From Clostridiales bacterium (GTDB lineage Bacteria > Bacillota > Clostridia > Lachnospirales > Lachnospiraceae), in assembly GCA_021199255.1 (NCBI GenBank), contig JAJQIK010000081.1, forward strand, positions 62,001 through 126,000: a DNA stretch of 64,000 bases, read 5' to 3'. Of this stretch, positions 12,222 to 43,367 are shown one piece after another (within the stretch, counting starts at the first letter, position 1; each line of letters opens with the position of its first letter). A model generated the notes under the pieces. That model worked only from the letters and a program-made list of their open reading frames with translations, was not told the origin of the DNA and did not search any database. The translations under genes were made by a program, and so were the position numbers.

Positions 12222-13358
12222 ATGGAAAAAACAGCTTTGATAGAAACCGCGTGTAAGGATTTGATGAGCTATGGCGTCTGGGATGGAAAGACCAGATTAA
12301 AACGAGGCGTCAAAAAATATCTGCTGCACAGGGAGGCTGGGGCTGAGGATTTGATTTTCTGGCCCACAGGGCTTCTGGCACATGGGCTGTGGAGCTGTAG
12401 GGCGGAGATTCTAAACGCTTTGGCGGGTTCGGACGGTAAGGAACCGAATGAGGACGATTTATGGGCTGGGAGACAACTGCTGGCCGATATCGAGGAGGCG
12501 CTGGCCGCTTATTATAGCAGATGGAGAAGGAAAGGAATGTCCGTTTTTTATCTGGATGATTTGCTTGCCGGGGAAACGATTCTCTCTGTTTTCGAGGAAA
12601 ATTGGAAGCCGGGGGAGGATTCTCAGGGAACTGAAAGCTGCGTTGGTTTTACAAGGGAGCAGTGCGTGGCGGCTCTGGACAGGCTGACGTCCTATGTCCA
12701 AAGCTATCCCCAGAATGAGACGGGGAGCTTTCCTTACCGCGCGTATCAGCAAAACGGCCGCGTTTTTGCGGACGGCGTCGGGCTTGCCTGTCCCTTCCTT
12801 TATCGGTATGGCATAACGTTTGGCCAACAGGAATATTTGGAATTGGCTGTGAAACAAATTGTGAATTTCTTGGCATACGGTATGGATACCGCTACCGGGC
12901 TGCCATATCATGGATATGATGCGGCTGATGGATGTAAATACGGCGTTATCGGCTGGGGGCGGGCTGTTGGCTGGCTGCTGCGGGGCATGGCGGCGTGCGT
13001 GCGCTCGGAGTATGGCAGAGAACGGCTTGCGGGACCGTATCGGGACTTGATCGACGCCGCGTTGGCTTATCAGCGTAAGGACGGCTGTTTTTCCTGGCAG
13101 CTGCAGGCGTTGGACGGCCCGGCGGACACCTCCGCCGCAGGGATGATCTGCGTGGCGTTAAAACAGGGGATAGAACTTGGGATTCTGACAAAGGATTGCT
13201 ATGGTCAGGCGTTACAGGCAGGCAGGAGCGCTATCGAAAGATTCATAAAGGACGGCAGAGTGTACCAGTGCTCAGGAGAATGTCTGGATTTTGCCCAGTA
13301 CCCTCAGAGATACGGCGCTTATCCATGGGCGTTGGGACCGGCGCTGGAGACGCTTTGA
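12222..13358 (+). CDS. Glycoside hydrolase family 88/105-like protein
   Basis: 378 aa, six-hairpin (alpha6/alpha6) type. RVFADGVGLACPFLYRYG carries an Asp (D184) at the place of the catalytic Asp of unsaturated rhamnogalacturonyl hydrolases such as YteR, and YHGYD followed by GVIGWGRAVGWLLRGM matches the second family landmark. GH88/GH105 enzymes cleave unsaturated uronic acids left by lyases. There is no signal peptide, so it should be cytoplasmic. Its place between Wzx and Wzy is odd for a degradative enzyme; it may edit or trim uronic-acid-containing intermediates, or the fold may have been reused. Function is inferred from family only. Confidence 0.72.
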   Translation: MEKTALIETACKDLMSYGVWDGKTRLKRGVKKYLLHREAGAEDLIFWPTGLLAHGLWSCRAEILNALAGSDGKEPNEDDLWAGRQLLADIEEALAAYYSRWRRKGMSVFYLDDLLAGETILSVFEENWKPGEDSQGTESCVGFTREQCVAALDRLTSYVQSYPQNETGSFPYRAYQQNGRVFADGVGLACPFLYRYGITFGQQEYLELAVKQIVNFLAYGMDTATGLPYHGYDAADGCKYGVIGWGRAVGWLLRGMAACVRSEYGRERLAGPYRDLIDAALAYQRKDGCFSWQLQALDGPADTSAAGMICVALKQGIELGILTKDCYGQALQAGRSAIERFIKDGRVYQCSGECLDFAQYPQRYGAYPWALGPALETL

Positions 13359-18254: not shown

Positions 18255-19253
18255 ATGGCACGCAGAACCTTATACGGGACTGTCATTGTAACCTATAGAT
18301 GCAACGCGCACTGTAATATGTGCGACTGCTTTAAGGACCCTACCAGACCGGAAGAGGAGATCACGCTGGAGGACATAAAAAAGCTGCCGGAGATGGCTTT
18401 TACCAATATTACCGGCGGCGAGCCCTTTATCAGACAGGATATTCCTGAGATTGTCAGGGAATTGTACAGGAAATCAGACAGGATTGTCATTTCCACTAAC
18501 GGCTATTTTACGGATCGGATTATTGCGCTCTGTAAGGAATTTCCCAAGGTGGGCATCCGCATCAGTATTGAAGGGCTGCAGGAGACAAACGATAAGATTC
18601 GTGGGATTCCGGATGGCTTTAACAGAGGCTATCGGACATTGAAGACGCTGGTGGAGATGGGGCATCCTGACGTGGGATTCGGCATGACGGTGCAGGATAT
18701 GAACTGTGAAGATCTGGTACCCCTTTACAACATTGCCAATGATATGGGAATGGAGTTTGCCACGGCCACCCTGCACAACTCTTTTTATTTCCGCAAGACG
18801 GATAATAAGATTGAGGATAAATATAAGGTGGCGCAGAATTTTGAAAAGCTGATCAATGAACTATTGAAGAGCAAATCCCCCAAAAAATGGTTCCGGGCGT
18901 ATTTTAATCATGGGCTGATTAATTATATTTACGGCAATAAAAGGCTGCTGCCCTGCGATATGTCAAAGAACGCCTTTTTTATCGATCCCTTCTGCGACGT
19001 CATTCCCTGTAACGGAATGGAGAAAAAGGCTGTCATGGGCAATCTGAGGAAGCAGAGCTGGGAGGAACTGTGGAATTCCGAGCAGGCGCAGGAGGTTCGC
19101 AAGTGTACGAAGAACTGCGGCAGAAACTGTTGGATGATCGGAAGCGCGTCTCCGGCGATGCATAAGTATATATGGGTGCCCGCCTGGTGGGTCATTAAGC
19201 ATAAATTGATAAAGGGCGGCAAATACAGTCTGAAGGAGAATAAGTTTATATGA
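18255..19253 (+). CDS. Radical SAM/SPASM-type enzyme in glycan locus
   Basis: 332 aa. The N-terminal TYRCNAHCNMCDC gives CxxxCxxC with C16, C20 and C23, which would bind the S-adenosylmethionine [4Fe-4S] cluster; TNITGGEPFIRQD follows as the GGE motif and GIRISIEGL marks a later strand. Late cysteines (LPCDM, VIPCNGM, CTKNCGRNCW) are arranged like a SPASM or twitch auxiliary cluster region. It lies between two GT4 genes and its stop overlaps the next start (ATGA). A role in radical modification of a sugar or of a lipid-linked intermediate is inferred from position; peptide substrates, usual for SPASM proteins, are not seen nearby. Confidence 0.85.
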   Translation: MARRTLYGTVIVTYRCNAHCNMCDCFKDPTRPEEEITLEDIKKLPEMAFTNITGGEPFIRQDIPEIVRELYRKSDRIVISTNGYFTDRIIALCKEFPKVGIRISIEGLQETNDKIRGIPDGFNRGYRTLKTLVEMGHPDVGFGMTVQDMNCEDLVPLYNIANDMGMEFATATLHNSFYFRKTDNKIEDKYKVAQNFEKLINELLKSKSPKKWFRAYFNHGLINYIYGNKRLLPCDMSKNAFFIDPFCDVIPCNGMEKKAVMGNLRKQSWEELWNSEQAQEVRKCTKNCGRNCWMIGSASPAMHKYIWVPAWWVIKHKLIKGGKYSLKENKFI

Positions 19254-27545: not shown

Positions 27546-29435
27546 ATGGCGTACAAAATCAGAAAAAGAGTCTGCCGCGTGGTTTTATTAATTCCATTAC
27601 TGCTGGTATTATACGGACTCTTACGGGAACAAAAAGATATCGTTGCGGTTCAGGGCGACTGTCTTGCAAGCCTTCTTTTTATCATAGAAGAAGGAGCGGC
27701 AGAGAAAACCGTTCTGCCCTTTTACAGTCAGGAGGAGGACATTTATTACCTGTTTCTTCCTGCTTATGCGGATGTGGATAACGTACAGATATCTTTTGAA
27801 GGGGCGGAAAAGGTTATCTTTCAGGAGGGAGGAGCCTGTTATGAATTGAAGACAGGTATGAGCCTTCAAAGCCTTCAGTATGATAAAGTCTATCAGGCGT
27901 CTTTTGTGAAGAATGGGCAGACGGAAAAAACAATGCAGTTGATGGTGAAGCACTCCGCTAACCTGCCGGCGCTCTTTATCGAAACCCAGTCCGGTTCCAT
28001 GGATGCGGTGGACGCTGATAAGGCTTACCGGGAGAATGGGAGCTATGTCCTGATAGATGCAGATGGAACGCTGGTGTATGCGGACGCGTTAGACCATATT
28101 ACCGGCAGGGGTAATTCCACATGGAATTATCCCAAGAAATCCTATAGTATCAAGCTGGCGAATCCGGCGAACCTGCTTGATATGGGGAGCGCACGAAGAT
28201 GGATTTTGTTGAGCAACGTGGAGGATACCACCTATCTGAGAAATAAAATCACCTATGACATGGCTGTCTCAGCGGGAATGGCAGGAGCGCCGGAGTCAAG
28301 GTATATCGATTTATATATTAACCAGGAATATTATGGCATGTATCTTCTGTGTGAGAAGATTGAACCGGGGGAAAACAGAATCCCCATGACGGATTTGGAG
28401 CTGGAAAATGAGAAGTTGAACAAAGATATCGAACAGGCGGAGCCGGTTTATACCCAGTTGAGCAAAGGAGTAGCCCTGGGCGCCAACCCGAAGGACATTT
28501 CCGGCGGTTATCTTATAGAGCGGGATGAGTATTCCAAATATATAGAAGAAATCAGCGGCTTCCAAACATCTTTATTAGGGGATCTGTACGTCATAAAAAG
28601 CCCTGAGTATGCGTCGGCGGAGGAAGTGGCTTATATCAGCGGTCTGTTTGCCCAGATGGAGGAGTCGGTGGCCGCCAGGGAGGACAGCGACGATTATCTG
28701 TACTATATTGACTTGGAATCCTTTGTGCAGAAGTATATGATTGAGGAAATCTGTAAAAATAATGGCGGAGGGGCTACCAGCTCCTATTTCTATAAGCCTG
28801 AGGACTCGGTCAGCACTAAGATTTTTGCAGGGCCGGTCTGGGATTATGATAAGGCCTATGCGGCGGTGGATGGCATTAATAACAGTACCAGAGATTTATG
28901 CTATCTGACACAGCGTAATGAGGGAACGACTTTATTCTGGTATTTGAATTGTCATGCCGGATTCCGGGAAGCCGTGAGCGAATATTACGCAGATTTTTTT
29001 GCCGATTATCTTGCGCAAGTGCTGGAAGTTAAAATGGCGGAGTATGCTTCCTGGATACGCTGTTCGGCGGATATGGATGCGGTCAGGTGGAAGGAAATCT
29101 ATGGGACGCTTGAACCTTATGAGGAGAGAGTCCGCGTGATTGAGGATTTTCTGACAGAGAGGAAAGCTTTTCTGGATGAAATATGGCTGGAAGATGCAGA
29201 ATTATGTACGGTTCATTTTGTGGCGCCGGAATGGTATCGGGATACTTATATGAGCGTCATCAAAGGGGAGTGCCTGACGGAAATACCGATGCAGATAACG
29301 GGTCAGGAGCTGAGCGGCAGGATTTTTGACGGATGGTATACACAGGAGGGAGAGGAATTTGATATGAGCCAGCCCTTATACGAGGATGTGACGGTGTATG
29401 CCAGAAGCCATGAAGCGGCTGAAGGGGATAACTAG
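27546..29435 (+). CDS. CotH kinase family protein, secreted or membrane-anchored, with C-terminal InlB-B-like repeat
   Basis: 629 aa. An N-terminal basic stretch and hydrophobic core (VVLLIPLLLVLYGLL) act as signal or anchor. The CotH domain follows: GRGNSTWNYPKKSYSIK at about 187-203, NQEYYGMYLLCEKIE, then FAGPVWDYDKAYA near 427-439 containing the acidic residues that bind metal and ATP in CotH kinases. The C-terminal 80 residues, ending FDGWYTQEGEEFDMSQPLY, look like a Listeria-Bacteroides/InlB-B repeat. CotH phosphorylates spore coat proteins in Bacillus; the target here is unknown. VTC and DUF4956 genes, frequent CotH companions, lie at 60245-61699. Confidence 0.88.
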   Translation: MAYKIRKRVCRVVLLIPLLLVLYGLLREQKDIVAVQGDCLASLLFIIEEGAAEKTVLPFYSQEEDIYYLFLPAYADVDNVQISFEGAEKVIFQEGGACYELKTGMSLQSLQYDKVYQASFVKNGQTEKTMQLMVKHSANLPALFIETQSGSMDAVDADKAYRENGSYVLIDADGTLVYADALDHITGRGNSTWNYPKKSYSIKLANPANLLDMGSARRWILLSNVEDTTYLRNKITYDMAVSAGMAGAPESRYIDLYINQEYYGMYLLCEKIEPGENRIPMTDLELENEKLNKDIEQAEPVYTQLSKGVALGANPKDISGGYLIERDEYSKYIEEISGFQTSLLGDLYVIKSPEYASAEEVAYISGLFAQMEESVAAREDSDDYLYYIDLESFVQKYMIEEICKNNGGGATSSYFYKPEDSVSTKIFAGPVWDYDKAYAAVDGINNSTRDLCYLTQRNEGTTLFWYLNCHAGFREAVSEYYADFFADYLAQVLEVKMAEYASWIRCSADMDAVRWKEIYGTLEPYEERVRVIEDFLTERKAFLDEIWLEDAELCTVHFVAPEWYRDTYMSVIKGECLTEIPMQITGQELSGRIFDGWYTQEGEEFDMSQPLYEDVTVYARSHEAAEGDN

Positions 29436-31535: not shown

Positions 31536-32642
31536 ATGAGAAAAGGTTATTATATCCATTTTCAGGGACGGGAATCTATCGGGGTCAGTAAGAAGATCGA
31601 TATGCAGATGGAAGAGCTCAGGAAATATTATGATATGCGGGAGTTAGAGATCAGGACGCCCGACAGGTCTTTGCCGGAGCGGATTTTTGGCTTGCTTCCC
31701 ATCATGTCGATCAGAAGAAATTATGACGAAGCACTGGAACAGTTAGATGATCCTGACTTTCTTTATGTCAGAAGAACGGTTGCCGACCGGGCGTATCTGC
31801 GTTTCTGGAAGAAAGTAAAGGAACGATATCCTGACTGTAAAATCGTTATAGAGATTTTTTCTTATCCCTATGATAAGGATGACTTTGGGAAATGGAACGC
31901 ATGGCCTTTTTATTTGAAGGAGCTGCTTTACCGCCCGAAGCTGCGGCGGTATGTGGATCGGTTTGTGACTTATACGGAGGATGAGGAGATCTTTGGAGTC
32001 CCCACGATCCGTTCTACCAACGGGATTAATATAGACCGGATAAGGCGGATTCGGGGAGAATTTCAGGAAGGAAGCATCCGTCTGATCGGTGTGGCGTTTA
32101 TGCAGAGACATCATGGGTATGAACGCCTGATTGAAGGGCTGCGCCAGTATTATCAGCGCCATCAGCAGCCGGAGTATCAGATTTATATGCATCTGGTGGG
32201 CGACGGGCCTGAGAAGCCGTTTTATCAGGAACTGGTACAACGATACGGGTTGGAAAATTTTGTGAAATTTTATCCCACCATGTCAGGGCAGGAATTAGAT
32301 GATCTGTACGACCAATGCGATATTGCGCTTGCTTCTTTCGGTATGTATAAGGCGGGGTTTCATGGGAAAATGAGCGCCTTAAAGACCAGAGAGTGTTTGG
32401 CGAAGGGCATGCCGTTACTTACCGGCTGCGCTATTGACGTATTGGACGAGACGTACCCCTATGCCAGACTTTTCCCCAATAATGGCAGCGTGGTTGACGG
32501 AGATGAAATTGTCGCTTTTTATCAAAAGCTGAGGCTTTTGACGGTGGACAAGCAGGAAATGGCTGACCGGATCAGGAGCTTTGCCGTCGCCCACGTCAGT
32601 ATGGAAGCCGTAATGAAACCGATTATAGAATATGTCAAATGA
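31536..32642 (+). CDS. GT-B type glycosyltransferase (GT4-like)
   Basis: 368 aa, clearly related to GT4 but divergent. The N-terminal MRKGYYIHFQGRESIGVSKK replaces the usual glycine loop. The donor-side half is recognisable: IRLIGVAFMQRHHGYERLIE, MHLVGDGPEKPFYQELV, DQCDIALASFGMYKAG and SALKTRECLAKGMPLL. GGGAG at 31522-31526 supports ATG 31536; the open frame extends upstream over the GT2 end without a site. It precedes the sugar-nucleotide genes. Confidence 0.78.
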   Translation: MRKGYYIHFQGRESIGVSKKIDMQMEELRKYYDMRELEIRTPDRSLPERIFGLLPIMSIRRNYDEALEQLDDPDFLYVRRTVADRAYLRFWKKVKERYPDCKIVIEIFSYPYDKDDFGKWNAWPFYLKELLYRPKLRRYVDRFVTYTEDEEIFGVPTIRSTNGINIDRIRRIRGEFQEGSIRLIGVAFMQRHHGYERLIEGLRQYYQRHQQPEYQIYMHLVGDGPEKPFYQELVQRYGLENFVKFYPTMSGQELDDLYDQCDIALASFGMYKAGFHGKMSALKTRECLAKGMPLLTGCAIDVLDETYPYARLFPNNGSVVDGDEIVAFYQKLRLLTVDKQEMADRIRSFAVAHVSMEAVMKPIIEYVK

Positions 32643-32674
32643 TTGTTAAAGAAGATGGAGAAAGGGAACACGCC

Positions 32675-33751
32675 ATGATTACGCATATTGTGGGCAATCG
32701 CCCGCAGTTTATTAAGCTGGCGCCGTTGTATCAGGAACTGGACAAGGCCGGCTGCGGGCAGAATATTATTCACAGCGGACAGCACTATGATGAAAATATG
32801 TCCGATGTGTTTTTTGAAGAATTAGGAATCCCGGCGCCTTATGTGAATCTGAAAGCGGGAGGCGGCAGCCATGCCCAGATGACCGCCAGAATTATGACGG
32901 GATTGGAAGAAGAATTGTTAAAGACCAATCCGGAACTGGTGATCCTCTACGGAGATACCAATACTACCATGGCCGGCGCGGTGGTGGCGGCTAAGCTGTG
33001 CATACCGATTGCCCATGTGGAGGCTGGTCCCAGGGTTCATTGCAGAGAGAACCCGGAGGAATGTAACCGTATTGTCACGGATCACTTGTCGGATATCCTC
33101 TTTTGTCCTGATGAGATTTCCATGGAAAATCTGCGCAGGGAGGGCTTGGGCGACCGGGCGTACAGGACAGGCGATATCATGTATGATACCTATCTGTCCA
33201 TTGCTGAGAAGACGGAGCAGGAGCCTGTACAGGAAGAAATTATTGTGATGACCTGGCACAGACAGGAGAATACTTCCGATAAAGAGAGAATGGACAGTAT
33301 TTTAAACCTGGTGGCACAATTGGACGGCAAAGTAGTCTGTCCGTTACATCCCCGTACCCGAAAATGTCTGGCGCAGTACGGGTTATTGGAAAAAGCGGAA
33401 GCGCTGCCTAACTTTGAAATGATAGATCCTGTGGGATATCTGGAGATGGTGGGGCTGATGCAGAGAGCCAGGCTGATCTTGACAGATTCCGGCGGTGTGT
33501 CTAAGGAATCTGCATACGCGGGAGCCAAATGTTTATTTATGGTAGAACTGGATATATGGGAGGATCTTGTTCGGGAAGACTGGATTCATAAGGTGGATCC
33601 GCAGGATCAGACGAAAGTAGCGGAGGCGCTTAAGTTTGCCAGAGAAGCGAAACATGTACCATTGCCTGACAGGCCGAGATATTATGGGGACGGCCATGCG
33701 GCGGCCAAAATGGTGCGGGCGCTGCGGGAACGACAGCTTTTGAGAGTATAA
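32675..33751 (+). CDS. UDP-N-acetylglucosamine 2-epimerase family (WecB/WbpI-like, non-hydrolysing)
   Basis: 358 aa. MITHIVGNRPQFIKLAPL, HSGQHYDENMSDVFF, YGDTNTTMAG, HVEAGPRVHCRENPEECNR, MTWHRQENTSD and LTDSGGVSKESAYAGA are the hallmarks of the epimerase that converts UDP-GlcNAc-type sugars to the ManNAc form. VEAGPR has Pro where WecB usually has Leu, and SKES replaces the common QEE, closer to WbpI-like members. Next to WlbA/WbpB and WbpE homologues it probably epimerises a diacetamido-uronic acid rather than UDP-GlcNAc. GGAGAAAGGG upstream favours ATG 32675 over the ATG at 32639 overlapping the previous stop. Confidence 0.85.
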   Translation: MITHIVGNRPQFIKLAPLYQELDKAGCGQNIIHSGQHYDENMSDVFFEELGIPAPYVNLKAGGGSHAQMTARIMTGLEEELLKTNPELVILYGDTNTTMAGAVVAAKLCIPIAHVEAGPRVHCRENPEECNRIVTDHLSDILFCPDEISMENLRREGLGDRAYRTGDIMYDTYLSIAEKTEQEPVQEEIIVMTWHRQENTSDKERMDSILNLVAQLDGKVVCPLHPRTRKCLAQYGLLEKAEALPNFEMIDPVGYLEMVGLMQRARLILTDSGGVSKESAYAGAKCLFMVELDIWEDLVREDWIHKVDPQDQTKVAEALKFAREAKHVPLPDRPRYYGDGHAAAKMVRALRERQLLRV

Positions 33752-33780
33752 ACTGCTCTGACATGGAGGATTAGGGTGAA

Positions 33781-34866
33781 ATGAAGATTACTATGAAATA
33801 TGCATTGATCGGGTGTGGGAGAATTTCACCGAACCATATAGTAGCGGCACAGAAGAATCATTTGGACATTGTGGCAATCTGTGATCTGGAGCCTCATAAT
33901 ATGAGGGACAAGGTGGTGAAGTTTAAGCTTCCGCCTACGGTCAAATGTTATACGGACTATCGGGAAATGCTGGAGAAGGAAAAGCCGGAGCTTGTTGCCA
34001 TAGCGACGGAAAGCGGCAAACATGCCCAAATAGCCCTTGACTGTATGACCATCGGCCATGCAAATCTGATTATTGAGAAACCTATCGCCTTGTCCTTAGC
34101 TGACGCGGATCGGATTATTGAGACTGCGAAAAAGGAAAAGCTAAAGGTTTGCGCATGTCATCAGAACCGTTTCAATAAATCCATTCAGAAGATTCGTGAA
34201 GCGGTGGAAATGGAGCGCTTTGGCAGAATGTTTTACGGCACGGCGCATATCAGATGGGCTAGAGACTACGAGTATTATTCCAGAGCCAAATGGCGGGGCA
34301 CCTGGGAACAGGACGGCGGCGCACTGATGAACCAGTGTATTCATAACATAGATTTGCTGCGCTGGATGATGGGGGATGAAATCGACTGTGTAGTGGGAAT
34401 GACGGATCGGCTGAAACACAATTATATAGAAGCGGAGGATCTGGGCATCGCCCTGATTCAATTTAAGAATGGCGCCTATGGCATTATAGAAGGCACTACC
34501 AATGTATATCCTTCTAATCTGGAGGAGACCCTGTATCTGTTTGGAGAGAAGGGTACGGTCAAGGCGGGGGGCAGCTCGGTTAATGTGATTGAGGAATGGC
34601 GCTTCGCAGATGTGCTGGATAATCCGGAGGAAGTAAAGGCTCAGTTTCATGAAAATCCGCCTAATGTGTATGGTTATGGGCATACGCCGCTATACGCGGA
34701 CGTTGTCGAGGCGATTGAACAGGACAGAGCGCCCTATGTAGACGCGGAGGCAGGCAAACGGGCGCTGGAGCTGGTGCTTGCGATCTATCAGTCGGCGGCT
34801 TCCGGGGAAATGGTTAAGCTGCCGATGGAAAGCTGCGCGACCACAGATTTTAGCGGTAGATTTTAA
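33781..34866 (+). CDS. Gfo/Idh/MocA oxidoreductase, WlbA/WbpB-like UDP-GlcNAcA 3-dehydrogenase
   Basis: 361 aa. The Rossmann motif YALIGCGRISPNH, the EKPIALS loop (Lys-Pro at the catalytic position) and the substrate side KWRGTWEQDGGALMNQCIHN are close to the WlbA/WbpB pattern. These enzymes oxidise C3 of UDP-N-acetylglucosaminuronate so that an aminotransferase can add a 3-amino group. CHQNRFN near residue 123 is another WlbA landmark. The aminotransferase is the next gene, 18 bases on. No UDP-GlcNAc 6-dehydrogenase (WbpA) is in the window. Confidence 0.87.
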   Translation: MKITMKYALIGCGRISPNHIVAAQKNHLDIVAICDLEPHNMRDKVVKFKLPPTVKCYTDYREMLEKEKPELVAIATESGKHAQIALDCMTIGHANLIIEKPIALSLADADRIIETAKKEKLKVCACHQNRFNKSIQKIREAVEMERFGRMFYGTAHIRWARDYEYYSRAKWRGTWEQDGGALMNQCIHNIDLLRWMMGDEIDCVVGMTDRLKHNYIEAEDLGIALIQFKNGAYGIIEGTTNVYPSNLEETLYLFGEKGTVKAGGSSVNVIEEWRFADVLDNPEEVKAQFHENPPNVYGYGHTPLYADVVEAIEQDRAPYVDAEAGKRALELVLAIYQSAASGEMVKLPMESCATTDFSGRF

Positions 34867-34884
34867 TCTTGGAAAGGCATTGTA

Positions 34885-36012
34885 ATGGAATTTCGTGATT
34901 TAAAAACGCAATATCGGCAGAATCAGAAAGCGATCGACCGCGCCATTGCGCAGGTTATGGAGAGCACTCATTTTATCAGCGGTTCTCAGGTGGAGGAATT
35001 AGAGGAAAAGCTGGCGGAATATGTGGGCGTAAAGTATTGTATTACCTGTGGAAACGGTACGGACGCGCTCTTGCTTGCGCTTATGGCATGGGATATCGGA
35101 GCGGGAGATCTGGTGTTTGTGCCGGATTTTACGTTTTTTTCGTCGGCAGAGGTGATTGTCGCGGTAGGGGCCACCCCGGTCTTTGTGGACGTGGATTATG
35201 ATACCTTCAATATGGACGTGGACAGCCTGAAACAAGCCATCGATTCAGTAGAGGAGCAGGATCGGCATCGTATGAAAGCAGTGGTTGCGGTGGATTTGTT
35301 CGGACAGCCGGCAAGACTGGACGCAATCAGAAAGGTTGCCTCCGATTATGGAATGTTGCTTCTGGAGGATGGCGCGCAGGGCTTTGGGGGCGAACTGAAT
35401 GGCAGAAAGGCATGCAGCTTTGGGGATATTTCCACGACCTCCTTTTTTCCCGCAAAACCCCTTGGGTGTTATGGGGATGGCGGCGCGGTCTTTACAGACC
35501 ATGAGGAATGGGCCAATGTGATCCGCTCCCTGCGGGTACACGGAAAAGGCGCCGATAAATATGATAATGTAAGAATTGGCATGAATTCCCGCCTGGATAC
35601 TCTGCAGGCGGCTGTTTTAATAGAGAAGCTGAGAATTTTTAAAGAATATGAGATGGAACAGTGCGATAAGGCCGCGGCGCTTTATACGGACAGACTGGAA
35701 AAGGTGGTGCATACGCCGAGGGTGCTTCCTGAGATGCGTTCCAGTTGGGCGCAGTATACGGTGAAGTTTGATGACGGTGAATTACGGGATCGGGCAATAG
35801 CAGCTTTGAAGAAACAGGGCATACCCACGGCGGTGTATTATGCCAGGCCGATGCATTTGCAGAAGGCTTTTGCGGGGATTCCCTCATCTGCGGAAAAGCT
35901 TAAGGTCAGTACGATGCTGTGCGACGTTGTGTTATCGCTGCCGATGCATCCTTATTTGGAGGAAGAAACGATTGCGCGGATTTGTGATGCAATGATAGAG
36001 GTTGCCTCCTGA
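34885..36012 (+). CDS. DegT/DnrJ/EryC1 aminotransferase, WbpE/WlbC-like
   Basis: 375 aa PLP-dependent sugar aminotransferase. MEFRDLKTQYRQNQKAID, THFISGSQVEELEEKL, TCGNGTDALLLALMA, EDGAQGFGGELNGRKACSFG and TTSFFPAKPLGCYGDGGAV are all present; the Lys of PAKPLG is the PLP lysine. The sequence is of the WbpE type, which makes UDP-GlcNAc(3NH2)A from the 3-keto product of the preceding dehydrogenase. Acetylation would then need a WbpD-like enzyme, for which the LpxD-like genes at 26204 and 59243 are candidates. Confidence 0.9.
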   Translation: MEFRDLKTQYRQNQKAIDRAIAQVMESTHFISGSQVEELEEKLAEYVGVKYCITCGNGTDALLLALMAWDIGAGDLVFVPDFTFFSSAEVIVAVGATPVFVDVDYDTFNMDVDSLKQAIDSVEEQDRHRMKAVVAVDLFGQPARLDAIRKVASDYGMLLLEDGAQGFGGELNGRKACSFGDISTTSFFPAKPLGCYGDGGAVFTDHEEWANVIRSLRVHGKGADKYDNVRIGMNSRLDTLQAAVLIEKLRIFKEYEMEQCDKAAALYTDRLEKVVHTPRVLPEMRSSWAQYTVKFDDGELRDRAIAALKKQGIPTAVYYARPMHLQKAFAGIPSSAEKLKVSTMLCDVVLSLPMHPYLEEETIARICDAMIEVAS

Positions 36013-36043
36013 ACCGTGAAAGTTTTTCAAAGGGACGGCTGCT

Positions 36044-37267
36044 ATGAAAAGAAAGCTATATCTGATTACGAAAACATTTCCCTATGAGGGCGGAGAAACA
36101 GCGTTTTTATCTCCGGAATATCCATATTTGACGGAGAATTTTGATGTGACGGTGGTCACTACCGAGCCTATTGACAAAGGAGAGGGGATGCCATCGGTGA
36201 TTTCACTCCTCCCAAGCGTAGGATTTACGGATAAATTATGGGGAATGGTGCGTTTTCTTGCCAACGGGGACGCGTGGAGAGAATTGGCGGATATTATGCG
36301 TTCCGGGCATGATCGGTTATCTCAGATCGGCAGAGGATTGATGTTTGGAACCGCTGCCGAGAATTTTTACAGGCGTCTGTGCAGGGAGACGGGCATGGGC
36401 AGGGAAACCGATGCTATTTATTATTTTTACTGGGCGGATTATAAGTGCTTTGGCCTGACGATGCATCACAGGAAATATCCCCATATTCAGATTGTGGCGA
36501 GAACCCATGGCTATGAGCTCTATGACGAGAGAGAGTTATATGGCAGGCAGTTTTTTAAGCCGCAGATGGACAGGGAGCTTGAGCGGCTTGTATTCGTATC
36601 GGAATATGGTAAAAATTATTATCTGCGCAACTATCATAAGCAGGACAGCGTTAAGTATCCGCTGCATCGTCTTGGCATCAGACAGCATGCGGCTCAGGCG
36701 CCGCAGCAGGCGAGAAATAAGGGATTTGTGCTTGTGAGCTGCTCTAATGTAATAGAGATTAAGCGCATTGATTTGATTATAGAAGGTTTGGCATTGGTGG
36801 AAGATTCCGTGACATGGATACACATTGGTGATGGAGTCTTGAAAAATAGTTTACAGGAAAAGGCAAAAGAGATTCTGGGGCACAAGGAAAATATTACTTA
36901 CGAATGGAAAGGCGCCCTTCCGAATCATGCAGTGATGGATTTCTACCGGCAGCAGCCGGTGCACTGTTTTATCACGACCACCTCTACAGAGGGAGGCAAT
37001 CCGGTGTCCATACAGGAAGCATTGTCCTATGGGGTACCTGTTATTGGGACGAGGGTTGGCGATATCCCTTATATGGTGGATGGAAATGGTATTCTTCTGA
37101 GCCCCAATCCCACCCCGGGGGAGATCGCGGAAGCGGTTACCCAGATGTGCCGGCTGGAGGAGGAAGCGTATGGGATATGGCGGGAAAATGCGCTTCATAA
37201 GTATTTGCGGGATTATGATGCGGATAAGCTGCATCCTGAGATGGCGGCAGAACTGCTGGGATTATGA
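36044..37267 (+). CDS. Glycosyltransferase family 4
   Basis: 407 aa. MKRKLYLITKTFPYEGGETAFLSPE opens like the amylovoran/colanic-acid GT4 subgroup; the middle ARTHGYELYDERELYG holds the acceptor-side His, and LVSCSNVIEIKRIDLII, HIGDGVLKN and TSTEGGNPVSIQEALSYGV give the donor-binding half with its E-x7-E region. AAAGGGACGG precedes the ATG. It directly follows the diacetamido-uronate genes and is a candidate to transfer that sugar. Confidence 0.87.
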   Translation: MKRKLYLITKTFPYEGGETAFLSPEYPYLTENFDVTVVTTEPIDKGEGMPSVISLLPSVGFTDKLWGMVRFLANGDAWRELADIMRSGHDRLSQIGRGLMFGTAAENFYRRLCRETGMGRETDAIYYFYWADYKCFGLTMHHRKYPHIQIVARTHGYELYDERELYGRQFFKPQMDRELERLVFVSEYGKNYYLRNYHKQDSVKYPLHRLGIRQHAAQAPQQARNKGFVLVSCSNVIEIKRIDLIIEGLALVEDSVTWIHIGDGVLKNSLQEKAKEILGHKENITYEWKGALPNHAVMDFYRQQPVHCFITTTSTEGGNPVSIQEALSYGVPVIGTRVGDIPYMVDGNGILLSPNPTPGEIAEAVTQMCRLEEEAYGIWRENALHKYLRDYDADKLHPEMAAELLGL

Positions 37268-37304
37268 CATGATGTAAATAGCGATTTGGAAACGGACAAT
37301 AGAT

Positions 37305-39011
37305 ATGGCTGATCAAAAGGAATTGCGGGGCTGGCTGGCAGCCCGGAATCTGAATATTGACTGCCTTGGACGAGGGCAGGCGCTGGGAGATGGCGTAGCA
37401 CAGTACACGAATCTGCTGCATAAATTTCCTCAGGATGAAATCTTCCTGCATGACGGGAAACGGGTTTGTTTCCTGACGGGATATGTCTATCATATACAGG
37501 ATTTCCTGCAGGCGGAGAACCATCGGAGATGGGACGATGCTTTCGTTGCGTCAATGGAGCGGGATATCATGGCGCATTTTCAGAAACTGCGGGGAGCTTT
37601 CTGCGGTTATACTTATAAGAAGGATGAAAAACAGGCGCTGATTTATACAGATCATACCTCTAATAAGGCGGTTTATTACTATACCAATGGCGATACATGG
37701 ATTGTTTCTAATTATGTAGATTTTATAGCGCGCGTTTTGCGGGCAAATGGAATCACTTTTCATTTTAATCCCGTTGCCGCACAATATATGCTGACGTACG
37801 GATACATGTTGGATGACAGTACCTATATCAAAGAAATCCACAGACTGATGCCGGGATGTTACGGCGTTATCGACGGCAATGGGATTAAAATCACACAATA
37901 CTATAAGCTGGCCTGTCATGAACAGGAGATGTCGGAGGAGGAAGCGCTGGAGAGACTGGATGTCTCCTTCCGGCAGGCGATAGACCGGGAATTTGGTAAG
38001 GACAGGGAATATGGCTACCGGCATCTGGTAGATTTAAGCGCAGGGCTGGACAGCCGTATGGTGTGTTTTGTGGCTCATGATATGGGTTATACGGAGCAGA
38101 CAAACCTGTCTTATAGCAAGCTGGGATACCGGGACGACCTGATTTCCGGTAAAATTGCCCGATATTTGGGACATGAGTATCTGTTTAAATCGTTAGATGA
38201 TATCCGATGGATGTATGATATTGATGAAATGACATTAAAAAATAACGGGGCGGCCATTTGTCTGGGAATAACGGGAGGCAACCGAATGTTGAAAACCGTT
38301 AATATGGAAGGGTTTGGAATCGAACATACGGGCATTATTGGCGGACCTACCATGGCCAGCTATTATCAGGATAAAAATCTGGCCTATGGCAAACCTCAAT
38401 ATGGCCTGAACGGGTATTCCGATAAGCTGCATTATACCTTTGATGAAAAGGTGCTGGAACAACATGAGACACAGGAGGCTTTTGCCATGAATACCAGAGG
38501 ACTTCTTGGAATGCAGGTCTCATATATGACGCGTCAGAATTATTTAGAGACTTCTTCTCCCTTTGCGGATGTGGATATGCTGGAAACTGCCTTTTCGATT
38601 CCGTTTGAATACCGCAGAGGAGACAGGTTGTATTTGAGATGGATTGCGGAGAAATATCCCGACGCGGCAAAGTTCGGCTGGGAGAAATGGGGTGGTGTAA
38701 AGCCCCAAAAGAGCCATATTTTCCTGCGGAAAATCAAAACTACGCAGCGGCTGGCCTATGGATATTTGTGCAGGCTGTTTTCCATGGAAAATGCACAATC
38801 CATGAATCCCATGGATTACTGGTATCATAACAATACCTCCATCAGAAATTATTTAGATAAAATGTATGAGGACAGAATTGGCAGCAGGGTGTTTGGGCAG
38901 GAGCTGGCGGCCGATATGAAAAAGCTGTATGAGACGGGGAATTTTATTGATAAAAGCCTTGTCCTGACGGTGCTGAGCGCGGTGCATCTGTATTTTGGGG
39001 ATAACGATTAG
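37305..39011 (+). CDS. Asparagine-synthetase-like protein without glutaminase cysteine
   Basis: 568 aa. The C-terminal part is an AsnB-type ATP pyrophosphatase domain with the P-loop-like VDLSAGLDSRMV near residues 243-254. The N-terminal part still resembles the Ntn glutaminase fold (YTYKKDEKQALIYTDHTSNKAVYYY) but there is no Cys after the initiator Met (it reads MADQKE), so it cannot use glutamine in the normal way. WbpS-like relatives in Pseudomonas O-antigen loci amidate uronic acids. Its place just after the uronate genes makes sugar-acid amidation the best guess; a role in peptide-like bonds is possible. Confidence 0.78.
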   Translation: MADQKELRGWLAARNLNIDCLGRGQALGDGVAQYTNLLHKFPQDEIFLHDGKRVCFLTGYVYHIQDFLQAENHRRWDDAFVASMERDIMAHFQKLRGAFCGYTYKKDEKQALIYTDHTSNKAVYYYTNGDTWIVSNYVDFIARVLRANGITFHFNPVAAQYMLTYGYMLDDSTYIKEIHRLMPGCYGVIDGNGIKITQYYKLACHEQEMSEEEALERLDVSFRQAIDREFGKDREYGYRHLVDLSAGLDSRMVCFVAHDMGYTEQTNLSYSKLGYRDDLISGKIARYLGHEYLFKSLDDIRWMYDIDEMTLKNNGAAICLGITGGNRMLKTVNMEGFGIEHTGIIGGPTMASYYQDKNLAYGKPQYGLNGYSDKLHYTFDEKVLEQHETQEAFAMNTRGLLGMQVSYMTRQNYLETSSPFADVDMLETAFSIPFEYRRGDRLYLRWIAEKYPDAAKFGWEKWGGVKPQKSHIFLRKIKTTQRLAYGYLCRLFSMENAQSMNPMDYWYHNNTSIRNYLDKMYEDRIGSRVFGQELAADMKKLYETGNFIDKSLVLTVLSAVHLYFGDND

Positions 39012-39048
39012 AGTAGGAAGCTTATAACGCTCCGGAATGAGGATTGAA

Positions 39049-40443
39049 ATGAAAAAGCAAGTACAGGAAGTGGATTTTCTTATTATTTATGAGCATAAAG
39101 TAAGAGAACTTGAAAATATGTGCCTGATCAAATATGAGTTAGAGAGAAGAGGGTATCGGGTTGTTATCCGCCATATCGAGGATCAGGAGGCGTTAGAAGC
39201 GGTTAAGCCTGTCTATCATGCTAAGGTGGTGACGACCATGGCATGCTATCAGAACGCTTCGCTGGAGTGGCATACCAAGGATTTTGTGACATTTGACAAA
39301 GTCATTGATATGCAATGGGAAAATATTGTATATCCGAAAGATGAAAGGGCGGGAGTTTTTAAGAATTATACCGGTATTGGAAGAGAAGTGGTCAGAGTCT
39401 CCTGGGGGGAGGCAAATAAAAGAAGGCTATTGGAATCAGCCCATATGGATCCGAGGAACATCAAGGTAGTGGGGCACGTGGGAATGGATTTTCTCAGGGA
39501 CGAATTAAAAGGTTATTATCTGGGCAGAGAAGAGCTCTTCAGGGAATACGGCCTGCCGACGGACAAAAAGGTGCTTTTGTTTGCGTCTCCTTTCTATGCG
39601 GATAATCTGTCGGAGGAATATATTGCGGGCATGTGCAGGAAGCACGGAGAGGATTGGCGTGATTATTACGATTTTATGATGCGCTCCGAGAAGGCTATTT
39701 TGGAGTGGATGGAGAGACTTTGCAACAGCAGGGACGATGTGCTTGTTATTTACAGACCTCATCCGGGACATATCGGCAGACATATGTCGGAGGTGGAAGC
39801 AAGGTGCAAGCATTTCAGGGTGATCAGCGACCGCTCCATTAAGCAGTGGATTGTGGCAAGCGATATTGTATATACGGGCAATAGCTCTACTATTGTAGAG
39901 GCATTTTTCGCAGGGAAAATGTGTTATCTCCTGTTCCCTTATGAGACGACGGAAGGCTTTGAACTGAAGCTGGTCAGCGCTGGCAGGAAGGTCAGAACCT
40001 ATGAGGAATTTGCCCGAACCGTGGAGGAGAAGAATCCCGCATTCCCTATTGAAAAGGAAGCGATCAACGAAATTTATCTGGTGGATGAAAAAACTCCCAG
40101 CTATTTAAAATTTGCGGATATGGCGGAGGAGGTTTTAAAGGACGATTCTTATGCCCTGACTAAGCGGCAGCTTGCCTCCTACCGCCGAAAACAGCCCCTT
40201 GGTGTCAGGCTTCAAAAGAAGCTTCAGCGCTGGGACTGGTTTTATGACCGTTACCGGGCGGCGCTGGCAGATGATAACTGTCATAATAAATGGATTGTAA
40301 AGCAGAGGGAACTGCGGCAGCGTCAGGCACAGGCGCATAAGCGATTTGAAATCGAGAGTACAAGCGAAGAAGAAATCAATGACATTATCGCCAGAATTGC
40401 GGCGCAGCTGGATCATCAGCCATTGCCGTCTGAGCAGGAATAG
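39049..40443 (+). CDS. GT-B-like surface carbohydrate transferase, candidate ulosonate transferase
   Basis: 464 aa. No membrane segment. Landmarks are VVGHVGMDFLRDE, VLVIYRPHPGHIGRHM (the RPHP motif of capsule KpsS/KpsC-like, TagF-like and polysialyltransferase-like GT-B enzymes) and DIVYTGNSSTIVEAFFAGK, the donor-binding loop of the same group. NCBI-style names for such proteins are vague (surface carbohydrate biosynthesis protein). Being next to a CMP-sugar synthetase, it could be the CMP-ulosonate-using transferase; this is inference. GAGG 6 bases before ATG 39049 favours that start over 39037. The C-terminal 90 residues are highly charged and Gln-rich. Confidence 0.7.
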   Translation: MKKQVQEVDFLIIYEHKVRELENMCLIKYELERRGYRVVIRHIEDQEALEAVKPVYHAKVVTTMACYQNASLEWHTKDFVTFDKVIDMQWENIVYPKDERAGVFKNYTGIGREVVRVSWGEANKRRLLESAHMDPRNIKVVGHVGMDFLRDELKGYYLGREELFREYGLPTDKKVLLFASPFYADNLSEEYIAGMCRKHGEDWRDYYDFMMRSEKAILEWMERLCNSRDDVLVIYRPHPGHIGRHMSEVEARCKHFRVISDRSIKQWIVASDIVYTGNSSTIVEAFFAGKMCYLLFPYETTEGFELKLVSAGRKVRTYEEFARTVEEKNPAFPIEKEAINEIYLVDEKTPSYLKFADMAEEVLKDDSYALTKRQLASYRRKQPLGVRLQKKLQRWDWFYDRYRAALADDNCHNKWIVKQRELRQRQAQAHKRFEIESTSEEEINDIIARIAAQLDHQPLPSEQE

Positions 40444-40473
40444 AGAAAATAGAGGAAAACGGAGGAAATCATT

Positions 40474-41154
40474 ATGAGCAACACAATCACAGCAGTAGTA
40501 CCGGTGAAAGGCAGCAGTTCCAGATTGCCGAACAAGAATATCTTACCCTTTGGGGATTCTAATTTATTACAGCACAAAATCGAGCAGTTAAAACAGGTTG
40601 AAGGACTTCACGAAATTATCGTTTCTTCCGATTCTGATGAAATGCTTGCTATCGGCGAGCAATGCGGCGTTAAGGCGATCAAAAGACCCATTCAGTATGC
40701 CAATGAATCAGTGCCTTTCGGTATGTTTTTGGAGTATGTGTGCGATATTATTGAAGGGGATCATTTGATGTGGGCGTGCGCGACATCTCCCTGTGTAGAG
40801 CCTTACCTGTACGAGAAAGCAATTAAGACTTACTTTGAGAAATTACAGGAAGGGTATGATTCTCTGGTCACCTGTTCTCCTTATCAGACCTATCTGATGG
40901 ACGAGAACGGACCGCTGAATTTCAAAATGGGACTGGAGCATAAAAATTCCGAACAGCTTCCGCTGCTGTATCACTTTACCAACGGTATTGACCTGGCGCC
41001 CAAGGACAAAGTGAAGGAATGGCATTATAATTACGGCCCCCGTTATTATAAGCTGTTGGTGAACAAAAGAGAAGCGGCGGACATCGACGATGTATATGAT
41101 TATGAAATGGCTAAGGTTTTATATGCCATGAAGGATCCGAAGCCTACGGTATAG
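40474..41154 (+). CDS. CMP-sugar synthetase (acylneuraminate cytidylyltransferase family)
   Basis: 226 aa. The NeuA/KdsB fold is clear: AVVPVKGSSSRLPNKNILPF (nucleotide-binding loop at residues 8-27), EIIVSSDSDEM, RPIQYANESVPFG, CATSPCVEP and REAADIDDVYDYEMA at the end. Such enzymes activate 2-keto-3-deoxy sugar acids with CTP. GGAGG sits 9 bases before ATG. The following genes encode an aldolase and a KdsC-like phosphatase, so this is the activation step of an ulosonic-acid pathway whose sugar is not sialic acid in the usual sense, as no NeuB is present. Confidence 0.87.
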   Translation: MSNTITAVVPVKGSSSRLPNKNILPFGDSNLLQHKIEQLKQVEGLHEIIVSSDSDEMLAIGEQCGVKAIKRPIQYANESVPFGMFLEYVCDIIEGDHLMWACATSPCVEPYLYEKAIKTYFEKLQEGYDSLVTCSPYQTYLMDENGPLNFKMGLEHKNSEQLPLLYHFTNGIDLAPKDKVKEWHYNYGPRYYKLLVNKREAADIDDVYDYEMAKVLYAMKDPKPTV

Positions 41155-41193
41155 AAGTATGCCGCGGTCGGAAGAGATCAGGAAGGAGACACG

Positions 41194-42804
41194 GTGATTG
41201 GAATGAGTATTCAATTATTGGACTGCACCCTCCGGGACGGCGGGTATATTAATGATTGGAACTTCGGTGAACACACCATTCGGGATATCTTGGCGAAGTT
41301 AATTGAATCCGGTACAGATTATGTGGAGGTTGGGTTCCTTCGCGATTGTGAGTATATGCCGGACAAGTCTCTTTTTAATAACTGTGCGGAGATCGAGAGA
41401 ATCCTGCCAGAGAAACGGGGTAAGACAAAGTTTACGGCGATGGCGCTTCATAATCAATATGATATTGATAAGCTGGAGCCCTGGGACGGCAGAACCATTG
41501 ACGCCATACGGGTAACCTTTCATGATTATGATATTGATGAAGGACTTGCCTATATCCGCAGGGTAAAGGAAAAAGGGTATAAGGTCTTTATCAATCCCAT
41601 TAACATTATGGGCTACAGTGATGAGATGATCTTGCAGCTTCTTCATAAAGTGAATGAATTGCAGCCCTATGCTTTTTCTATCGTGGATACGTTTGGCTCC
41701 ATGATGCGCGAGGATTTGCTTCGTATTTATTCGCTGATCGAGCATAATTTGAGCAAAAATATTGTAATCGGCCTGCATCTGCATGAGAACCTTGCGTTGT
41801 CTTATTCGCTGGCGCAGGAGTTTATCAATATCAAAGCCAGTGACAGGGAATGTGTGATAGACGCTTCCATGCTGGGAATGGGGCGTTCGCCGGGCAACCT
41901 GTGCATGGAACTGATTATGGATTATATGAATAAGAAACAATCGGGGCATTATGATGTGAATCCAGTATTGGACGGTATTGACGACCATATTGCGCGGCTG
42001 AAACAGATAGAGCCATGGGGATACAATACCGCCTATTCGATTTCGGCCAAATATAATCTGCACCGGAATTATGCGGAATTTCTGCTGGATAAGGGTCGGT
42101 TGCGCGCAAAGCAGATCAATCAGATATTGGGCAGCATTGCGGCTGACAGGAAAACGGCCTTTGACAAGGCTTATATTGAAAAGCTGTATCAGGATTTCCA
42201 GAACAATGCCATAGACGATAAGGAGACCCTGCAGAAGCTGTCTCAGGAAACAGCGCATAGAAAGTGCCTGATTCTGGCTCCGGGTTCCAGTATTCTGGAG
42301 GAAAGGGAGAAAGTGGAGGCTTATCTTGCAAAGGAGAAGCCTGTGGTATTTTCCGCGAATTTTGTACCGGAGACCTATCGCGCCGATTATGTGTTCTGCT
42401 GTAATGCCATGCGTTTGGAAACTATTATGGGCAAAAGAAATCTTCCTAAGCTGATTATTACCTCCAATCTTCTGGATATGTGCGAAGAAGCGCGATGGGA
42501 ACAGGAGCAGCCGCCGGAAGTGCTTGGCGTGGATTATATGGATTTGAACTTTCGAGAAAATGAACCTCTGGACAATAGCGTAATCATGCTGCTCCGGCTG
42601 TTAAAAAAGCTGGAAGTGGATCATGTGGCGCTGGCAGGCTTCGACGGTTATCAGACGGATCGCAAGGCGAATTATGTGGCGGATTATATGGCGAGCCAGC
42701 ATACAAAGGGAGAAGAAGAAAATCAGAAAATCAAAAGCTGCATGGAGCAGATGGAGAAACAGATGGAGGTTCAGTATGTGACAGAATCTCTTTATCAGTA
42801 CTAG
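41194..42804 (+). CDS. DRE-TIM (HMGL-like) aldolase with extra C-terminal Rossmann-like domain
   Basis: 536 aa. Residues about 6-290 are a DRE-TIM metallolyase barrel: LLDCTLRDGGYINDW (R14-D15), DYVEVGFL, FINPINIMGYS, VDTFGSM and IGLHLHENLALS with the two metal-binding His near 195 and 197. 4-hydroxy-2-oxovalerate aldolases and HMG-CoA lyases have this fold. From about residue 350 there is a second domain (CLILAPGSSI, VFSANFVP, YVFCCNAMRLE, HVALAGFDGY) that recalls DUF115/MptE-like or GT42-like Rossmann proteins. GTG 41194 has AAGGAG 5 bases upstream; ATG 41203 is possible. Pyruvate plus sugar aldehyde condensation is the suggested reaction. Confidence 0.8.
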   Translation: MIGMSIQLLDCTLRDGGYINDWNFGEHTIRDILAKLIESGTDYVEVGFLRDCEYMPDKSLFNNCAEIERILPEKRGKTKFTAMALHNQYDIDKLEPWDGRTIDAIRVTFHDYDIDEGLAYIRRVKEKGYKVFINPINIMGYSDEMILQLLHKVNELQPYAFSIVDTFGSMMREDLLRIYSLIEHNLSKNIVIGLHLHENLALSYSLAQEFINIKASDRECVIDASMLGMGRSPGNLCMELIMDYMNKKQSGHYDVNPVLDGIDDHIARLKQIEPWGYNTAYSISAKYNLHRNYAEFLLDKGRLRAKQINQILGSIAADRKTAFDKAYIEKLYQDFQNNAIDDKETLQKLSQETAHRKCLILAPGSSILEEREKVEAYLAKEKPVVFSANFVPETYRADYVFCCNAMRLETIMGKRNLPKLIITSNLLDMCEEARWEQEQPPEVLGVDYMDLNFRENEPLDNSVIMLLRLLKKLEVDHVALAGFDGYQTDRKANYVADYMASQHTKGEEENQKIKSCMEQMEKQMEVQYVTESLYQY

Positions 42805-42845
42805 GGGATCGCTTGGATACCTCCCGGAAAGGCAGGATTTGCAGT

Positions 42846-43367
42846 ATGAAGGATTGGAAGAAAATCAAATATCTGGTTATCGATGTGGACGGCACCATGA
42901 CGGACGCCGGTATCTATTATGACGAGCATGGCAATGAATTAAAGAAGTTTTGTACCAAGGACGCGGCAGGCTTCTTCGCCGCGAGACAGGCGGGAATCAA
43001 GGTTATGGTGCTTACGGGAAGAGAGTGCGCCGCCACCACCCGCAGAATGGGCGAGATGAAAGTGGATTATCTGGTACAGAACTGTAAGGATAAAGTCGCC
43101 TACCTCACAGAATTTATGAAGGCAAATGCGATTCAGGGGGAAGAGATAGGATATCTGGGAGATGATCTCAACGATTTGCCGCCCATGAGGCTGTGCGGCT
43201 TCGTGGGCTGTCCGGAGGACGCCTGCCGGGAAGTAAAGGAGCAGGCCGATTATGTGTCCTGCCGGGCAGGCGGGCACGGGGCTGTGCGGGACATGATAGA
43301 GTATATGCTGCGGGAGAGCGGCAGGTGGGAGAAGGCTGTTAAGGAAATTTACGGGATCGGCGTGTGA
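42846..43367 (+). CDS. KdsC-like HAD phosphatase (3-deoxy-ulosonate 8/9-phosphatase type)
   Basis: 173 aa. IDVDGTMTDAGIYYDEHGNE carries the nucleophile D13 and acid D15, MVLTGRECAATTRR the second motif and YLGDDLNDLPPM the metal-binding DD. The small cap-less form is that of KdsC and related phosphatases, tetramers that remove phosphate from KDO-8-phosphate or KDN-9-phosphate-type sugars. With the upstream aldolase and CMP-synthetase it forms synthesis, dephosphorylation and activation steps. AGGA 8 bases before ATG 42846 decides the start against TTG 42813. Confidence 0.87.
   Translation: MKDWKKIKYLVIDVDGTMTDAGIYYDEHGNELKKFCTKDAAGFFAARQAGIKVMVLTGRECAATTRRMGEMKVDYLVQNCKDKVAYLTEFMKANAIQGEEIGYLGDDLNDLPPMRLCGFVGCPEDACREVKEQADYVSCRAGGHGAVRDMIEYMLRESGRWEKAVKEIYGIGV

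Follow-up and report, generated by a model that had tools for sequence, protein, structure and literature searches.

Where does a bacterium obtain the sugar acid that a cytidine monophosphate (CMP)-sugar synthetase is to activate when the synthase that ordinarily makes this acid is missing from the locus? In the canonical pathway to 3-deoxy-D-manno-octulosonic acid (Kdo) and the nonulosonic acids, the acid is made by KdsA or NeuB, which are phosphoenolpyruvate (PEP)-dependent synthases, freed of its phosphate by KdsC where it is made as a phosphate, and activated by KdsB or NeuA. Predictions of sialic-acid-like sugars and Kdo are commonly based on whether NeuB or KdsA is present. The question is raised by a stretch of 64,000 nucleotides (hereafter the window) from the genome of a Clostridiales bacterium of the Lachnospiraceae, in which four adjacent genes form a cassette that shares the synthetase superfamily, the KdsC-family phosphatase and the glycan-cluster setting of the canonical pathway, but has no PEP-dependent synthase nearby and carries an HMGL-like aldolase in that place. 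On the evidence set out below, we consider it likely that the cassette serves to synthesize a CMP-activated 3-deoxy-2-ulosonic acid through a non-canonical aldolase route and to transfer it.

Open reading frames and family profile scans confirm the four genes that the initial annotation had read here, namely a GT-B transferase, a NeuA/KdsB-type synthetase, an HMGL-like aldolase and a KdsC-like phosphatase. All four are co-directional, and with ATG starts the gaps between them are 30, 48, and 41 bp. The transferase gene (39037–40443, + strand; 39049 is its second ATG) encodes a GT-B-like protein that passes the cut-off of subfamily TIGR04396 (150.8 vs. 125 bits), with a weak likeness to the BFO_1060 family (108.2 bits, cut-off 200) and a remote one to cytidine diphosphate (CDP)-glycerol glycerophosphotransferases; it is proposed to be the transferase of the CMP-activated acid. 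The synthetase gene (40474–41154, + strand) belongs to the NeuA/KdsB superfamily (PF02348, 49.8 vs. 22.6 bits), and its product is weakly PseF-like, missing the cut-off of the PseF equivalog TIGR03584 (70.9 vs. 205.7 bits). It is followed by the gene of the two-domain DRE-TIM aldolase (41194–42804, + strand; GTG start, ATG at 41203), which passes the cut-off of PF00682 (56.7 vs. 29 bits), and by that of the HAD phosphatase (42813–43367, + strand), for which the ATG at 42846 matches the usual length of its relatives better than the TTG start at 42813. The phosphatase passes the cut-off of the KdsC subfamily TIGR01670 (129.7 vs. 106.95 bits) and misses that of NF058599, the equivalog of phosphatases acting on 2-keto-3-deoxynononic acid 9-phosphate (KDN-9-P; 138.3 vs. 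180 bits). The PseF-like and KDN-9-P-phosphatase-like scores, both below their cut-offs, hint at an acid other than an octulosonate.

The neighborhood of the aldolase was compared across two sets of loci. Set 1, from a scan with the aldolase only, holds 42 loci at 48–85% identity, in records mostly named Lachnospiraceae and otherwise Clostridium, Bacillus, Blautia, Eisenbergiella and similar, or simply “bacterium.” Set 2 (40 loci) derives from 200 genomes of the family Lachnospiraceae, each at least 90% complete, of which 43 have an aldolase match and 40 a full-length one; genome counts are given on these 40 carriers (G006, G009, and G130 dropped), and the locus set has G006 in place of the window genome. 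The initial annotation had held that the PEP-dependent synthase is absent, and for the neighborhood this stands, in the window and in its relatives: searches with one NeuB sequence and one E. coli KdsA sequence found no relative of either within 6 kb of the aldolase in any of the 82 loci (42 + 40), as far as each extends. Within the same distance a CMP synthetase occurs in 36 of 42 loci of set 1 and 21 of 40 of set 2, and a HAD phosphatase, either KdsC or HAD-IA, in 39 of 42 and 24 of 40, respectively. The expected co-occurrence of the families is borne out for the synthetase; in some loci no phosphatase was found. The sequence cluster of the window’s transferase is present in 30 of 43 aldolase loci, that of the window included. 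Counted by genome, 20 of the 40 carriers have a PF02348 gene no more than 1 kb from the aldolase, and 22 have one within about 5 kb; chance would account for about 0.1 genome (the 40 genomes, each of about 3 Mb, have 71 matches in all, or some 1.8 per genome).

The result that speaks most strongly for the aldolase standing in for the synthase is the way in which KdsB genes are split between aldolase and KdsA neighbors. A KdsB-type match (TIGR00466, E ≤ 1e-20) is found in 17 of the 200 genomes, 10 of them over the curated cut-off. Fourteen of these genes (8 of the 10) have the aldolase as a neighbor within about 5 kb, and two (G099 and G155, both among the 10) have a true KdsA at a distance of about 1 kb; in the remaining genome, G171, the 28-kb contig with the aldolase breaks off 0.9 kb from it, and KdsB is on another contig. 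None of the 17 genomes has KdsB with neither aldolase nor KdsA, and all 15 KdsB genes that are not beside KdsA are in aldolase-bearing genomes, compared with 40 of 200 genomes that carry the full aldolase. A true KdsA without a KdsB match occurs in two genomes (G016 and G086).

A second line of support comes from carriers that have no canonical synthase at all: true NeuB (E < 1e-40) and KdsA are both absent from 17 of the 40 aldolase genomes. Six of these (G001, G011, G134, G146, G176, and G187) match neither PF03102 nor the KdsA model. The other eleven (G015, G021, G056, G088, G108, G117, G120, G150, G163, G168, and G171) match PF03102 weakly (E about 1e-6 to 1e-11; cut-off 22.1 bits), and these matches were rejected as NeuB and assigned to 3-deoxy-D-arabino-heptulosonate 7-phosphate (DAHP) synthase. 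By Pfam’s PF03102 cut-off alone, 144 of the 200 genomes would count as NeuB carriers, and in all eleven genomes the protein scoring below the TIGR01362 cut-off passes that of the DAHP synthase equivalog TIGR01361. The weak match lies at the same place as the DAHP synthase in five (G015, G021, G108, G168, and G171) and is presumed to be the same protein in the other six, for which the place of the match is not listed. The aldolase has a synthetase within about 5 kb in 11 of the 17 genomes, three of which match neither model (G134, G146, and G187) and eight of which have the weak DAHP synthase match (G015, G021, G088, G108, G120, G150, G163, and G168); no other source of the acid was found in these 11 genomes with the NeuB and KdsA models. 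Comparative genomics, through the KdsB split and these 11 genomes, supports the initial annotation in placing the aldolase where NeuB or KdsA would be, in what is still a predicted pathway.

The aldolase comprises an N-terminal metal aldolase domain of the 3dxi/DmpG kind (about residues 1–300, counted from the ATG at 41203) and, C-terminal to it, a second domain of about 200 residues. Its best NCBIfam models are 4-hydroxy-2-oxovalerate aldolases, both below cut-off (60.2 vs. 229 bits, and 51.8 vs. 286 bits for TIGR03217). Among solved structures, the N-terminal domain matches best 3dxi, a putative aldolase (E 5.8e-31), then 8ih7, 1nvm, 4lrs, and 4jn6; all five are aldolases or a putative aldolase. 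Residues Arg11, Asp12, His192, and His194 are invariant in 88 of 88 aligned rows (87 of two-domain proteins, some partial, and one of the single-domain paralog of the window genome), the last three residues being present also in five of five single-domain rows. Their counterparts in DmpG (1nvm) are its Arg, Asp, and His-x-His, of which the Asp and the two histidines are metal ligands. The closest solved relative, 3dxi from Bacteroides vulgatus, shares the motif CTLRDGGY and differs in being a single domain of 320 residues, of which the molecule name says only “putative aldolase.” The C-terminal domain has the conserved patterns G-x-S, S-N-x-x-R, and A-G-x-D-G. Ten of 36 members, the window’s own not among them, match the MptE-like family PF01973 at E ≤ 1 (best 2.7e-4), alignment of profiles with five MptE-like neighbors (hhalign) gave a weak match (probability 16%, E 0.0016, 48 columns), as did 8sd5 (E 0.049), and the fold is perhaps MptE-like. 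Assignment as an MptE-like or a sialyltransferase-like CMP-binding domain was set aside, the evidence being too weak for use.

The genes, their families, the conserved metal-ligand pattern and the recurring linkage are what the sequence itself provides, and from these a route can be drawn. The metal-dependent DRE-TIM aldolase would add the enolate of pyruvate to an aldose phosphate, giving a 3-deoxy-2-ulosonate phosphate, which is a 4-hydroxy-2-oxo acid in phosphorylated form, and would thereby replace the PEP-dependent NeuB or KdsA synthase. The KdsC-type phosphatase, to judge from its family, would take off the phosphate, and the NeuA/KdsB-type synthetase would form the CMP-sugar. By family and position, the adjacent GT-B transferase would then add the sugar to the surface glycan of the surrounding cluster. 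Removal of the phosphate and expenditure of cytidine triphosphate would pull the reversible aldol step forward.

The window genome as a whole does contain a PEP-dependent synthase, outside the cassette and its neighborhood. One PF03102 match (C60:995–1714, in gene C60:884–1933) is found outside the window, about 101 kb upstream of the aldolase; no KdsA (TIGR01362) match was found in this genome at E 1e-5. It is only the cassette, then, that lacks a synthase, and the one encoded elsewhere in the genome comes with a partner of its own: it is PseI by score (460 vs. a cut-off of 340.25, the N-acetylneuraminate synthase cut-off being missed at 285.9 vs. 399.65) and stands directly behind a synthetase gene (C60:93–866) that is PseF by score (277.4 vs. 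205.7). It is conceivable that this remote NeuB makes the acid and that the cassette dephosphorylates, activates and transfers it, the aldolase having another role in the same glycan. Such an arrangement would accord with the NeuB genes found elsewhere in 35 of 35 sampled genomes of the window’s subgroup (L002–L034, L042, and L043) and in 38 of 42 genomes of set 1, and with PseF being the best model, far below its cut-off, of the window’s synthetase. It would also accord with the phosphatase scoring best, again below cut-off, on the KDN-9-P phosphatase model, which is the partner type of a NeuB-family enzyme: in Bacteroides, a NeuB-family KDN-9-P synthase works with a KdsC-type phosphatase. 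We nevertheless judge it very unlikely, as the remote NeuB and its neighbor are a complete PseI–PseF pair, and the same was seen in the three relatives scanned (L096, L103, and L104). Moreover, across 13 NeuB loci (the window’s and those of 12 single-NeuB relatives) a NeuA-type gene is adjacent or one gene off in 12 and a KdsC match near NeuB in none, and eleven genomes have the aldolase–synthetase pair with neither NeuB nor KdsA. In the subgroup, NeuB seems to serve a distinct pathway, to pseudaminic acid, that has a synthetase of its own. A NeuB-family gene about 99–116 kb from the aldolase was also noted in four relatives (L006, L024, L027, and L030), on contigs taken to be the same from their matching lengths.

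Two further explanations concern what the aldolase makes. PF00682 also covers Claisen-type condensing enzymes, and a protein of the isopropylmalate or citramalate synthase kind could use an acyl-CoA to make a non-sugar acid that is then CMP-activated; the window protein indeed gives a weak match to the isopropylmalate/citramalate synthase model (29.3 bits). The aldolase models score higher (60.2 and 51.8 bits), the five solved relatives point the same way, and a KdsB over its equivalog cut-off in one locus (L036) suggests a sugar acid, so that this too appears highly improbable. The operon may instead serve two sugars, with the aldolase making a short 4-hydroxy-2-oxo acid or acting on a glycan sugar other than the substrate of the synthetase. 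A thiamine diphosphate (ThDP) enzyme, often with CDP-dideoxysugar genes, in 18 of 19 synthetase-free loci lends this some weight, and means that the aldolase product need not be the CMP substrate everywhere. The confinement of KdsB genes that are not beside KdsA to aldolase genomes (15 of 15, when 40 of 200 carry the full aldolase) and the 11 genomes in which no other synthase for the acid was found make it unlikely all the same. Phosphonate and phosphinate pathways, in which an HMGL-like enzyme also occurs with a cytidylyltransferase, were set aside on general grounds, no search for PEP mutase having been made.

Several observations nonetheless weigh against the aldolase as source of the CMP-activated acid. 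No CMP synthetase is near it in 19 of the 40 loci of set 2, no phosphatase was found within 6 kb in 8 of the 21 synthetase-linked loci of that set, and a TIGR04396-type or polysialyltransferase-family protein, present within 6 kb in 36 of 42 loci of set 1, is there in only 7 of 40. Of the 17 KdsB matches, seven fall short of the curated cut-off. In the protein, the catalytic base of DmpG, His21, is matched by a tyrosine (Tyr15) in 85 of 88 rows. No conserved gene dedicated to the acceptor aldehyde was noticed in the neighbor lists of window-type loci, for which no family-level search was made. True NeuB is present in 23 of the 40 aldolase genomes (G099 has KdsA too), which together with the 35 of 35 subgroup genomes makes NeuB a possible source of the acid here; support is weaker for the window’s own subgroup because all 35 sampled genomes have NeuB elsewhere. 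Finally, single-domain relatives on plasmids of Priestia and Paraburkholderia have no CMP synthetase in the annotation around them, and for that on a Niallia plasmid, where the record is unannotated, the models found the aldolase alone; these relatives weigh against a general claim for single-domain members.

Across loci, the aldolase is kept while its partner families change. In L035–L037 (families scanned in L036 only) it lies between a KdsB-type synthetase, which in L036 exceeds the equivalog cut-off (164.6 vs. 155.2 bits), and a phosphoglycolate-phosphatase-like HAD protein, beside a gene of the L-ribulose-5-phosphate 4-epimerase family. In L038–L041 (scanned in L039 only, the others assigned by similarity) it occurs with KdsC, a polysialyltransferase-family protein and KdsB, and in further loci with PseF-like or NeuA-like synthetases. 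The KdsB-type partners suggest octulosonates in some lineages. The KdsB–aldolase–HAD triad of L036 (554–10234) is also accompanied by an IspD/TarI-like cytidylyltransferase and by a protein in which a TarF-like glycerophosphotransferase is fused with an MptE-like domain.

The aldolase also occurs in a second context, marked by an acetolactate-synthase-like ThDP enzyme. When set 2 is divided by the presence (21 of 40) or absence (19 of 40) of a CMP synthetase within 8 kb, this enzyme is found in 18 of the 19 synthetase-free loci (L063, L065, L067, L068, L070–L080, L082, L084, and L086) vs. 1 of the 21 synthetase-linked ones; the exception among the 19, L048, is the locus of G171, whose KdsB is on another contig. 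The synthetase-free loci also contain RfbF (13), RfbH (12), RfbG (11), and a HAD-IA phosphatase (10), families named from proteins of L070 and L072. This composition recalls the YerE-type pathway to the CDP-branched sugar yersiniose, from which it differs by an added aldolase and, often, a phosphatase; these additions suggest that the acyl donor is a 2-oxo acid bigger than pyruvate, and the loci may represent an undescribed branched CDP-sugar pathway. Since 2-oxo acids are substrates of CMP-ulosonate synthetases as well as of ThDP ligases, the two contexts would point to the same kind of product, a 4-hydroxy-2-oxo acid.

Both contexts reach beyond the family. In the wider phylum, the aldolase was found in 2 of 347 other genomes (E 1e-45), with KdsB beside it in one (L093) and a ThDP-type context in the other (L094). 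Of 10 plasmid matches found, six were examined (H1, H2, H3, H5, H6, and H7). Three plasmids of Leisingera (Alphaproteobacteria) bear a relative at about 25% identity, and in the two that were opened the aldolase is followed immediately by an annotated 3-deoxy-manno-octulosonate cytidylyltransferase and a HAD hydrolase. More broadly, then, the two-domain DRE-TIM pyruvate aldolase may be a cross-phylum enzyme of glycan assembly that makes phosphorylated 4-hydroxy-2-oxo acids. These would be dephosphorylated and either CMP-activated, as Kdo- or nonulosonate-like sugars, or transferred with decarboxylation by a ThDP enzyme onto CDP-dideoxy sugars to yield branched sugars, so that the enzyme would be both a replacement for KdsA or NeuB and the supplier of an undescribed branched-sugar pathway. 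We regard the chances for and against this wider proposal as evenly balanced, and give the aldolase route a reasonable chance of being a general alternative. Among the distant loci, L093 has right after its KdsB–aldolase pair a gene (334–1359, − strand) whose opening residues read like those of a PfkB-type (2-keto-3-deoxygluconate kinase-like) sugar kinase; this gene may be the edge of another operon. A single-domain aldolase on a Desulfobaculum bizertense plasmid (L088:4822–9005) has as neighbors RfbH and two genes that the annotation calls transketolase parts, and this locus is, by its gene content, a ThDP-type context outside Bacillota.

How does the proposed enzyme compare with known aldolases? 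With the 4-hydroxy-2-oxovalerate aldolases DmpG and BphI (1nvm and 8ih7) it shares the sequence family and the Arg-Asp and His-x-His pattern, and it departs from them by its score below cut-off, the Tyr in place of the catalytic His, the extra C-terminal domain and the biosynthetic sugar context. NanA and Kdo aldolase are catabolic enzymes whose chemistry joins pyruvate and an aldose into 3-deoxy-2-ulosonic acids, NanA being of the Schiff-base family and mostly engaged in breakdown; the cassette, by contrast, has a metal-type enzyme together with a phosphatase and a CMP synthetase. No earlier description of the cassette was found in the part of the literature open to the search, which included PMC3962088, most subscription journals and preprints lying outside its coverage; the BFO_1060 family likewise gave no match there. 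If the route is real, ulosonic sugars would have been overlooked in many Gram-positive gut commensals and some marine bacteria, KdsB-type genes in KdsA-free organisms would be explained, and a family of biosynthetic pyruvate aldolases would be available for making rare sugar acids.

The genome of the window (3.08 Mb, 99.28% complete) contains a second aldolase relative, a single-domain protein of 29% identity (C12:68731–69597; L045:1429–2406, − strand). It sits between chorismate synthase-like and tyrosyl-tRNA synthetase-like genes, identified by reading only, and no glycan gene was noticed around it within the 3.9-kb locus. The cassette itself belongs to a long surface-glycan locus on contig C60. 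On its 5′ side are genes for a UDP-GlcNAc 2-epimerase, a Gfo/Idh oxidoreductase and a DegT aminotransferase (32639–36012) and an asparagine-synthase-like gene (37305–39011); the families of 32639–39011 resemble a route of the WbpI/WbpB/WbpE type in which a diamino-uronic acid is formed and afterwards amidated. Further transferase-like genes follow on the 3′ side. Elsewhere in the same region of the window are genes for a polysaccharide pyruvyl transferase family protein (9387–10592), a glycoside hydrolase 88 family protein (12222–13358), a radical SAM/SPASM protein (18255–19253) and a CotH kinase domain protein (27546–29435).

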